Source of the DNA: an uncultured Nitrospiraceae bacterium
GTDB taxonomy: Bacteria > Nitrospirota > Thermodesulfovibrionia > Thermodesulfovibrionales > SM23-35
Assembly (NCBI GenBank): GCA_937138415.1
Contig: CAKZPA010000044.1
Location: forward strand, 1 to 64,000
Direction: 5' to 3'
Length of the DNA stretch: 64,000 nucleotides
Below are positions 203 through 3,380 of the stretch, piece after piece. The notes under the pieces are model-generated. The model had not been told where the DNA came from. It worked only from the letters and a program-made list of their open reading frames with translations, and made no database searches. A program made the translations under genes and the position numbers. Position 1 is the first letter of the stretch. Every line of letters begins with the position of its first letter.

Positions 203-1503
203 CTAATGCGTCGCGCAGCTCAGGCAGGGATTGAAAATCCTCACGCAGCGGCTGATGAGTTTTTCGCCCTCGGGTGAGATGCTGTCACCGTCGGGGTGTT
301 TTTCGGCAAGGTCTCTGAGGAGAAGATTGATGGAGGCGTTATTGAACTGCGTCGCGACCATGAGGCGCATGCGTTCTGTCTTTCCCTGATTGATAAGGTA
401 GCTGTGCATCAGAATTCCCCGCGGTGCCTCGAGCACGCCGATCCCCTGCCCGCTCGCCGTGAGATCGACGTCCGCCCTCATCTGCGAGAGATCGACCTCA
501 TCGAGGAGACGGAGAATCCGCTTCGCCGCCCAGAATATCTCGAGGAGGCGGCACGCGTCATAACTTTCGAGAGTGATGGATTTACGATCACGCAGCATAC
601 CGACGAGGTCGAGTCCCGACACATCCGGATCGTAGAGAAAACCGTTTTCCTGGAAACTCCGCGAGAGAGGACCGACGAGCATGATCCCTGCCGGGAACCC
701 GAACCGCGACAGGTACGGAAACTTCGCGAGCGTCCATTCCGCTCTCAGCTCCGAGACATTGTCCAAGAACTCCGCTCTGCCGAAGCTCACTCCGAGGTTT
801 CCCTCCTGATCGTACACGCAGAAGGTATCTTTGGCGGGTTCTCCGTCGTATGCGACGAAGTTGATCTGCTGCTCCGCGGGGAAGGGGATTTTCTTCGACG
901 GCACGTGAAACGCCTCAGACTGTGCGATGAGCCTGAGGGAACGTTCCTTGACATCGGTCGCGATTGACCTGATCTCCGCGAGAGCCTGCGCGTCGGGTTC
1001 CGCGTGGAAGCGGCCGATACCCGTCGTGACGGGGTGCGACGTGCGCCCGCCGAGGATTCGCACGATGTTCAGTCCCGCGTCGCGAAGGGCGAACGCCTCC
1101 CGGGCGATTTCGGGATGGCTCCGGATGAGATCGAAAATGCCCGACGATGCCCCCACGAAGTCCGGCATCGAGAGAAAGAAATAAGTCAGGGCGTGGCTGT
1201 TGATCCACTCCCCGAGGACCTGAATTTCCCGTAAATGACGCACCGAAGAAGGTGTCTCCACGCCGTGCGCTTCTTCGATCGCCCGAATGGAAGCGACCTG
1301 ATGAGCCGACGAGCAGAGTCCGCAGATTCTCAAACCATGTGCGGCACATATTCGGCGCGAATGCCGCGCATGAACCCCTCGAAGCCCCGGAATTCCTGGA
1401 CTGACAGCCGTGCCGTCTTCACTTCGCCGTCGCCCACCTCGATCTGAATGTTCGCGTTCCCCTCGATACGTGTTGCTTTCTGAAAAATGATCGTGTTGCT
1501 CAC
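203..1503 (-). pseudogene. [NiFe] hydrogenase large subunit, one frameshift
   Basis: Catalytic subunit of a group-3-like [NiFe] hydrogenase. The N-terminal 57 codons (GTG at 1503) read TRIEGNANIQIE and EFRGFEGF, then hit TGA near 1330. The other 376 codons continue in another frame from RICGLCSSAHQVAS. Adding one T to the TTT run near 1332 restores PHMV-LRICGLC and a protein of about 433 residues. Both active-site pairs are present: RICGLC and the terminal NPCLSC. Two oddities: the usual Asp of DPCxxC is Asn, and the protein stops right after the final His (SCATH), so there is no C-terminal peptide for a maturation protease to remove. That resembles regulatory H2-sensing hydrogenases, although the sequence looks group 3. 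The GTG start overlaps the small-subunit stop (GTGA). The frameshift may be decay or a base-calling error. Confidence 0.8.
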
Positions 1504-3380
1504 CGGATTCTCGCTCTGTCGTTCGTGATGTGCCGAATAAACGGCACGGAGTTATTCGCGTGTCTCCGGAACAGCCTCATGACATGCCTGATCTGAGATT
1601 CAAGGTGGCGGTGGCGGCTGACGAAGGCTTCGACCATGGACTCTTCGAAACTATTCCCCTCTTCCATCTTTTTCAAGGCGGTATCCGAAGGCCCGGCAGC
1701 CCCAGCAGGGGAGGCCGCCTCGCGGGCAGACGGCGCCGCACCCGCCTTTCGTCACGAGCCCGAGACAAACCGAACCCATCGAGGTGAAGCAGTGCCGGGT
1801 ATCCCAATCCGCGCGGGGGAACATCCAAAAGTGCTCGACATTCGTTTTGACGTGCTTTCTGCTGCATTCAGCGCACACGATGGATTTCGGTTTTTCGGAC
1901 GGTCCGTCGCCTCTGAGTTCGCCGACGAGCACGTTCAAAAGACCCGCGTTCGGCGGGCAACCGGCAATATAGTAATCGACGCGCACGAACTCGTCTATTT
2001 TACGGGCACGCCGCAGGAGCCGCAATTCGCTCTCCTCTTCCTGATAGGTTGCCCGATCGATACCGCGCCGGCCGGACACGCAGTAGGCGAATGGATCTTT
2101 CGCATGCCCATAGGATTCTTCGAGCAGCTCTTCCAGTTCGTACTGGTTGGCGTAAGCGGGGATGCCCCCGAGCGCCGCGCACGTTCCCCACGCGACGAGG
2201 TATCTGGTTTTTGCCCGCACCTCCCTGATTTTCTCCTCGTCGTCTTTGACCCGCACCACGCCGTCGACGACCGCGATGTCCACTCGCCCGGTGTTTCCTC
2301 GTCGATGAGCATGGGGCAGCAGGAAATGTCTATGCTCGCGAGAAGCTCCGCTAACGTCGTTTGATTTTCGAGGAGTATCGCCGCACAGCCCCCGCAGGTG
2401 GCGAGAGAAACGAGTGCTGTCTTGACGAGTCCTCTTCTCCTGAGAGGCGGAGGTAAAACCCGCGCCGGTACCGACAAGGATTTTGTGGGATCGTTCATGA
2501 CCGACAACAATCCCCTGAGACGGATAATCAGACCGCGCAGGATGTAGAGTGCGAGTTCCGGTCTCGTTTGAATCTGCTCGATGAATTCATGCCGCGATAG
2601 GGGAAACAGGTACGCGTCGCCAACGGCAATGGCGTGAGCGGTGCGAGGCTGATCGACGATCATCGCAGTCTCGCCGAAAAAGTCGCCGGGTCTCAGGACC
2701 GCGAGAATAGTCCTGTCGTCTCTGGGCCCCTGGCTGATCTCGACCGCTCCTTCGACGATGATGTACATCGTGTCGCCCGGATCGCCCTGGTAGGAAACGG
2801 GTTGTTTGTCTTCGAAGTACACGCACTCCGCTCGCGGTAGCGTAATGTCTTCGGTGCGTTCCGGCGGTTCGGGATGTGTTCGAACGTCCGCAGTCGTATG
2901 TGCCGCCGGCCCGGCCGGGCCTTCAGCGGGCGTCTCGCCAGCGACGGCTTCGTCCTCGCCGCGATGGATCCTCCCCGCTTCGGTAACGAAAGAGCGCAGC
3001 GCCTGATCTTTCTGCACCATGGTGCGTAGGCGATGATTTATCTCTGTAATGCGCTGGCAGAGCGTCGAGAGGAGGTGGAGGACGACGCCGGGATCCTGAC
3101 GGATCCGGTCCATAATGGATGCGCGGGTAAATGGGAGCAGCCGGCTTGGGCTGATAGCTGTCGCGGTTGCCGATCGGAGGTGTCCATCAATGAGCGCCAT
3201 CTCTCCGAAGAAGTCGCCTCTTTCGAGGAGAGCGAGGACGGTCTTTTTCCCGTCCTTTTCCTGGCTGATCTCGACGGAGCCCGACTGGTTGATATACTTG
3301 GTATCGCCGACGTCTCCCTGTCTGAAGATGACGTCCCCTTTTCCGACGCCGATGCCAAAGAGATCTTCTTGTGTGCTCAC
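1500..3380 (-). pseudogene. Two cNMP-binding domains fused to [NiFe] hydrogenase small subunit, two frameshifts
   Basis: From GTG 3380 a single frame encodes two cyclic-nucleotide-binding domains (about residues 5-125 and 185-305). Both keep the phosphate-binding cassette and its Arg (FGEMALIDGHLRSATA and FGETAMIVDQPRTAHA). The frame then runs without a stop into a small subunit: LATCGGCAAILL, CCPMLIDEETPGE. The rest lies in a second frame (2283-1651: VDIAVVDG, AWGTCAALGG, YIAGCPPN, CLGLVTKGGCGAVCP) and then a third (ALKKMEEGNSFEESMVEAF to TGA 1500). Joining them needs about one G near 2288 and two G near 1695, giving roughly 628 residues. The Cys pattern suits a group 3 (Mvh/Hyh-like) small subunit with three FeS clusters. 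A TGGTATAGT box at 3396-3388 puts the transcript start almost on the GTG. Fusion of cNMP domains to this subunit is unusual. Confidence 0.75.

Follow-up and report, generated by a model that had tools for sequence, protein, structure and literature searches.

The locus at the start of contig C44 raises the question of whether a [NiFe] hydrogenase can carry its own cyclic-nucleotide receptor, and what such a receptor would do. Hydrogenases are usually controlled through expression, redox state, or oxygen. cNMP domains usually act as inputs, and fused cNMP domains gate PKA-like kinases and the mycobacterial acetyltransferase Pat. In the window, the whole 64,000-nucleotide stretch analyzed here, two such domains precede a [NiFe] small subunit. 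We consider it roughly an even bet (probability ~0.5) that what we see here is a rare module of two genes, present in damaged form and encoding a cAMP-gated, stand-alone, group-3-like [NiFe] hydrogenase, for which we infer the ligand and the direction of control. The module displays a distinctive architecture, NiFe and Fe-S ligand motifs, a tail-less large subunit, a 4-nt gene overlap, and a lack of partner genes nearby.

On the minus strand, translation and three-frame reading reveal a single frame from 3380 to ~2283 that encodes two cNMP-binding domains followed by the beginning of the [NiFe] small subunit (Table 1). Pfam cNMP_binding (PF00027) matches two stretches of this frame (E 1.5e-43), PF01058 matches 2283-1651, and PF00374 matches 1333-203. 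The earlier note placed both cNMP domains and the start of the small subunit in one open frame from 3380 through CCPMLIDEE, and translation and Pfam bear this out; the small subunit as a whole stays in one frame in five relatives but not in the window, where the frame breaks at ~2283 and ~1695. The small subunit continues in a second frame from ~2283, returns to the first frame at ~1695, and ends at 1500. The large subunit opens with a GTG at 1503, meets a TGA at 1332-1330, and proceeds in another frame to 203 (three-frame reading). A terminator scan returned no site, and a hairpin located by eye after the stop has a loop too long for the scan.

Table 1. Features of the hydrogenase locus in the window (C44:1-64000).
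Feature	Positions	Strand	Basis
cNMP-binding domain 1, motif FGEMAL...RSAT, Glu and Arg kept	3096..3341	-	PF00027, motif alignment
cNMP-binding domain 2, motif FGETAM...PRTA, Glu and Arg kept	2565..2822	-	PF00027, motif alignment
Open frame: GTG start, cNMP1, linker, cNMP2, first part of small subunit (SLATCGGC...CCPMLIDEETPGE)	2283..3380	-	translation, frame map
Frameshift 1: -1 nt when compared with the relatives	2281..2285	-	three-frame reading, codon-usage frame map, alignment
Small-subunit middle in the second frame (VDIAVVDG...GCGAVCPRGGLPCWGC) with its Fe-S cysteines retained	1696..2283	-	PF01058, alignment
Frameshift 2, directly following CWGC; net -2 nt or +1	1692..1696	-	three-frame reading, frame map, alignment
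Small-subunit C-terminal end (GPSDTALKK...NDRARIR stop), first frame again	1500..1694	-	three-frame reading, alignment
GTGA overlap of large-subunit start with small-subunit stop, 4 nt, as in five relatives	1500..1503	-	comparison of relatives
Large-subunit N-terminal part (VSNTIIFQKATRIEGNANI...VPHMV)	1333..1503	-	three-frame reading, frame map, alignment
Frameshift 3, immediately ahead of L1 motif RICGLC; -1 nt, producing gtt TGA gaa	1331..1332	-	three-frame reading, frame map, alignment
Large-subunit remainder: L1 RICGLCSSAH, PRG motif, L2 NPCLSCATH, stop, no C-terminal tail	203..1330	-	PF00374, alignment
Non-coding end of contig C44	1..202	.	window = C44:1-64000, frame map

Looking for the same architecture elsewhere, as the earlier note proposed, yielded five relatives. 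A large-subunit scan of one genome per species, covering 84,980 species, returned four loci with 53-57% identity to the window (L042, L043, L044, and L045), and a profile search added a fifth, L070/L104, with a full-length fusion of 637 aa. The relatives include Deltaproteobacteria and Chloroflexi MAGs. All five encode cNMP-cNMP-small-subunit in a single unbroken frame followed by the large subunit, the fusions measuring 625 aa in L043, 601 aa in L044, and 646 aa in L045; the L042 locus runs into its contig end, leaving domain 2 alone visible. A 4-nt overlap (ATGA or GTGA) joins the small-subunit stop to the large-subunit start in 6/6 members. The two findings that the earlier note named as refuting, a stop with a separate start between the cNMP and small-subunit parts and a C-terminal extension on the large subunit, were looked for in the relatives, and neither was found. 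That distantly related taxa share the architecture, although their large subunits have only 53-57% identity to that of the window at four loci, excludes a chance open frame, and mis-joined neighbors are likewise ruled out by a fusion unbroken in five relatives.

The flanks of L042, L043, L044, and L104 contain no hydrogenase partner gene of the F420, NAD(P), or Hdr type. The proposal that the operon adds only a large subunit to the fusion is therefore supported at these four loci; in the window, a mere 202 nt separate the large-subunit stop from the end of contig C44, so downstream operon content cannot be read there. The large-subunit profile separates members, at 684-805 bits, from the next hydrogenases, at 280 bits or less. 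Counting in each taxon the genome that seeded the search, members occur in 1/396 genomes of the window's phylum, 1/400 of L044's phylum, and 1/395 of L043's phylum, and in 1/18 genomes of L042's order and 2/219 of L045's order. This scattered occurrence suggests horizontal transfer. Plasmid sequences, also searched, matched with no more than 30% identity and included no close relative. Judged from these comparisons, the fusion is a very rare, genuine, and conserved architecture of one clade.

The earlier note missed three frameshifts in the window copy and its location at a contig end, only implying a need for correction. Relative to the relatives, the frameshifts lie within 3.1 kb of the operon, at ~2283 (-1 nt), ~1695 (net -2 nt), and ~1332 (-1 nt), and a homology-free codon-usage Viterbi frame map sets the switches at 2281/2282, 1680/1681, and 1330/1331. 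The fusion frame is thus genuine, yet the window gene is broken three times. Programmed frameshifting was set aside, since the genes of the relatives are read without it and no pattern is common to the three breaks. Private substitutions at conserved columns (0.068 and 0.054, versus 0.03-0.16 and 0.03-0.08 in the others) and branch length are ordinary for the window copy, lending no support to an old pseudogene; any decay would therefore be recent, and the copy is probably a recent pseudogene.

The strongest competing account concerns the window copy only and is compatible with any functional reading: the three frameshifts would be local assembly or sequencing errors, and the gene intact in the organism. 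Conserved reading resumes across each break, the conserved-column substitutions are not elevated, and the contig end is 0.2-3.4 kb away from the operon. We rate this account at somewhat less than even odds. Against it, a sample of ~494 kb of coding sequence gave no more than eight flagged stop-less switches of frame, three of them in the hydrogenase operon and a cyclase gene, although the detector misses many shifts and flagged 1/3 in the window operon. This sample offers no support for poor sequence genome-wide, and the three other large subunits of the host genome are each in one frame. The remaining five switches are single events, at C1:6682 (L073), L084:2134, L114:3304, L125:19717, and L128:13794. 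Also against the error account, the L2 motif DPCxxC of the large subunit carries Asn for Asp in the window copy alone (NPCLSCATH, window 230-206, minus strand), a substitution that may reflect decay, error, or a tolerated change.

Damage of the same kind affects the host's sole detected class III cyclase gene (PF00211) on contig C5, among clean genes. This gene, at C5:4707-6753 (L077, L071, and L072), is composed of an N-terminal cNMP domain, membrane helices, a GAF-like part, and a cyclase, and about four shifts break its coding sequence into pieces in different frames. The remaining cNMP proteins of the host genome look intact. One of them, at L099:463-2037 (C2:12904), is a 525-aa protein in which a cNMP domain precedes a eukaryote-like protein kinase domain, much as in PKG. 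Damage to both receptor and cyclase would fit a decaying cAMP module, though two damaged loci are few. The cAMP-hydrogenase module is probably being lost in the host genome, provided that the breaks do not stem from errors of local assembly.

The hydrogenase phylogeny that the earlier note suggested, a maximum-likelihood large-subunit tree of 49 rows without an archaeal FrhA reference, places the six members in one clade (support 100/100) on the group 3 side, with a stem of 1.43 changes per site. None of the 3b, 3c, and 3d references falls within the clade, nor do HoxC and HoxG; long-branch attraction may account for the way it joins 3b-like rows, leaving its exact place unsure. Membership in the named groups 3a-3d was rejected, given this separate deep clade, the gap in profile score between members (at least 684 bits) and other hydrogenases (at most 280), and the lack of subgroup partner genes at L042, L043, L044, and L104. 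A group 2b regulatory hydrogenase was likewise rejected, the clade lying away from HoxC with no histidine kinase adjoining.

Among solved structures, the large subunit is nearest to the NiFe hydrogenase 7t2r (262 bits) and MvhA-type enzymes (243-250 bits). The small subunit is nearest to MvhG-type chains (PDB 5odc_E and 9sfi_I, 153-159 bits; NCBIfam VhuG). CxGC, GTCAA, GCPP, and eight C-terminal Cys are invariant in the six small subunits and match MvhG, so that a full electron wire is expected. MvhAG (VhuAG), the group 3c F420-non-reducing or methyl-viologen hydrogenase, thus offers the closest small subunit, the same cluster cysteines, and one of the closest large subunits; the fusion differs from it in the N-terminal cNMP tandem, the lack of an MvhD or HdrABC partner gene, the missing C-terminal tail, and its separate deep clade. 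HoxBC, the regulatory hydrogenase of group 2b, shares a tail-less large subunit and the lack of a redox partner gene, whereas the fusion belongs to a different clade and has cNMP domains in place of a histidine kinase. Group-3b-like large subunits from the window's order (L012, L014, L019, and others) also end at the last L2 His, but they form a separate clade with no cNMP fusion and a DPCISCSVH motif.

L1 (RxCGxCxxxH) is present in 6/6 large subunits and L2 (DPCxxCxxH) is complete in 4/6, with the metal-binding Cys kept in 6/6. The L2 endings are DPCLSCATH, DPCLTCATH (L044), DPCLSCATQ (L045), and NPCLSCATH (window); in the L045 subunit (L045:3096-4388), Gln replaces the terminal His. All six stop at L2 with no C-terminal tail, so the lack of a cleavable tail, described earlier for the window, extends to the five relatives. 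HoxC lacks a C-terminal extension (PMC10073562). In our sequence comparison HoxC ends in SFDPCMVCTVH, and HoxH and HoxG carry tails. The earlier note took the absent tail as a mark of H2-sensing hydrogenases. This did not survive comparison: the clade is apart from HoxC, and eleven sampled large subunits of the window's order, all group-3b-like, also end at the L2 His, in DPCISCSVH (L012, L014, L019, L021, L022, L024, L025, L027, L029, L030, and L032). L012, the sole one of the eleven checked, best matches the Thermococcus and Pyrococcus sulfhydrogenase (group 3b). Given its absence in such enzymes too, the missing tail points to the lack of a maturation-protease step and does not prove H2 sensing. 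One in-frame TGA occurs in the same-order large subunits of each of G028, G040, G067, G076, G084, G091, and G098, as expected for selenocysteine [NiFeSe] enzymes.

Turning to the ligand, the phosphate-binding motif of domain 1 has its Glu, Arg, and Ser in 5/5 members in which this domain is visible (window, L043, L044, L045, and L104). Domain 2 keeps Glu and Arg in 4/6, the motif being lost in L045 and L070. An AlphaFold model, poor over the small subunit (mean pLDDT 56), forms both cNMP folds, and only these folds were used; on this low-confidence model, the best Foldseek matches are the tandem cNMP domains of PKA and PKG. No fusion gave an HTH match, which sets the family apart from CRP/FNR transcription factors. 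In PKA, PKG, and mycobacterial Pat, a fused or bound cNMP domain acts allosterically on the catalytic part of the enzyme, with the domains in tandem in PKA and PKG; in the fusion, the catalytic part is a hydrogenase.

A class III adenylate cyclase lies directly downstream in 2/4 informative loci. In L043 the next downstream gene, ~0.5 kb away on the same strand, encodes a response-regulator (REC) class III cyclase; in L104 it encodes a class III cyclase-AAA-TPR protein, ~80 nt away and convergent. Given this orientation and this distance, neither is clearly co-transcribed with the hydrogenase. The downstream place is taken by a PP2C phosphatase in L042 and by a metallo-beta-lactamase-like protein, named by eye, in L044, and L043 also has a divergent GAF-SpoIIE phosphatase. 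Class III cyclases occur in all five other host genomes, with 2-25 matches each. Assuming about one gene per kb, and with the count made post hoc, a cyclase would neighbor two of four loci by chance with a probability of ~1e-5 to 1e-4.

The domain 1 motif and the adjoining cyclases in two loci favor a putative cAMP link, lending support to one half of the earlier suggestion of an H2- or cAMP-linked sensor or gated enzyme; its other half, sensing argued from the tail, has lost that support. Under cAMP gating, class III cyclases would make cAMP, which would bind the cNMP tandem, mainly domain 1, and the bound tandem would switch hydrogen turnover by the heterodimer, much as cNMP domains gate PKA-like kinases or Pat. 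The enzyme would be soluble, the small subunit bearing the N-terminal tandem as its regulatory input, and electrons would exit along clusters of the MvhG type and reach a soluble acceptor, perhaps ferredoxin, whose gene would lie elsewhere. Points against cAMP gating are the two adjoining cyclases, which are not clearly co-transcribed, the neighbors of L042 and L044, which are not cyclases, the precedent of HoxI (below), the loss of the domain 2 motif in L045 and L070, and a family of only six members. Of the possible workings, cAMP gating ranks as the most likely, an H2-to-signal sensor comes second, and a HoxI-like role third. We hold only tentatively, at a little under one chance in two, the fuller proposal of a new deep group 3 clade in which cAMP from a neighboring class III cyclase would directly gate H2 turnover, and in which receptor and cyclase would be decaying together in the window's lineage.

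The H2 sensor, which we consider unlikely, would reverse the flow of information: turnover at the NiFe site would alter the cNMP tandem, and the signal would pass by protein contact, for example to a neighboring cyclase or phosphatase, as from HoxBC to HoxJ. The absence of electron-acceptor genes nearby, a large subunit without a C-terminal tail like that of HoxC (PMC10073562), and the signaling genes that adjoin three loci (L043, with a REC-cyclase as well as a SpoIIE/GAF phosphatase; L042, with a PP2C; and L104, with a cyclase) are consistent with it. The tail argument is weakened by the group-3b-like controls of the same order, and the clade lies within group 3, far from HoxC. A kinase or output domain is also absent, and cNMP domains are usually inputs.

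Less probable still is a tandem that, instead of receiving cAMP, binds NAD(P)H or plays a structural part in the manner of HoxI. HoxI, part of the group 3d soluble hydrogenase of C. necator, is a cNMP-fold subunit described as an NADPH activation site, and it aligns with the window cNMP domains (blastp 1.7e-16, in a tiny database); group 3b clusters similarly tie a cNMP fold, as a separate gene, to a group 3 [NiFe] hydrogenase. As HoxI demonstrates, hydrogenases can carry a cNMP fold that is no cAMP receptor. However, HoxI carries His (PHS) in place of the phosphate-binding Arg of cAMP binders (VGELGFIDQTPHS), unlike domain 1 with its Glu and Arg. HoxI is a separate, small, single-domain protein seated on the diaphorase, whereas the fusion places two domains on the small subunit at loci where diaphorase is absent; identity with HoxI was rejected on these grounds. 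Such a module would also leave the adjacent cyclases unexplained.

The cNMP-cNMP-small-subunit fusion is a new design among [NiFe] hydrogenases. The open-access literature searched, which leaves most subscription journals outside, held no account of a cNMP-fused hydrogenase architecture. If cAMP gating is correct, this would be, to our knowledge, the first second-messenger-gated hydrogenase. With no tail to be cleaved, the large subunit should mature without a protease, and the module, comprising two overlapping genes, is small and would thus be directly expressible and testable. The cNMP tandem has been kept on the hydrogenase across phyla. If the proposal is true, cAMP would let some bacteria switch hydrogen metabolism on and off fast, or hydrogen would feed cAMP signaling.
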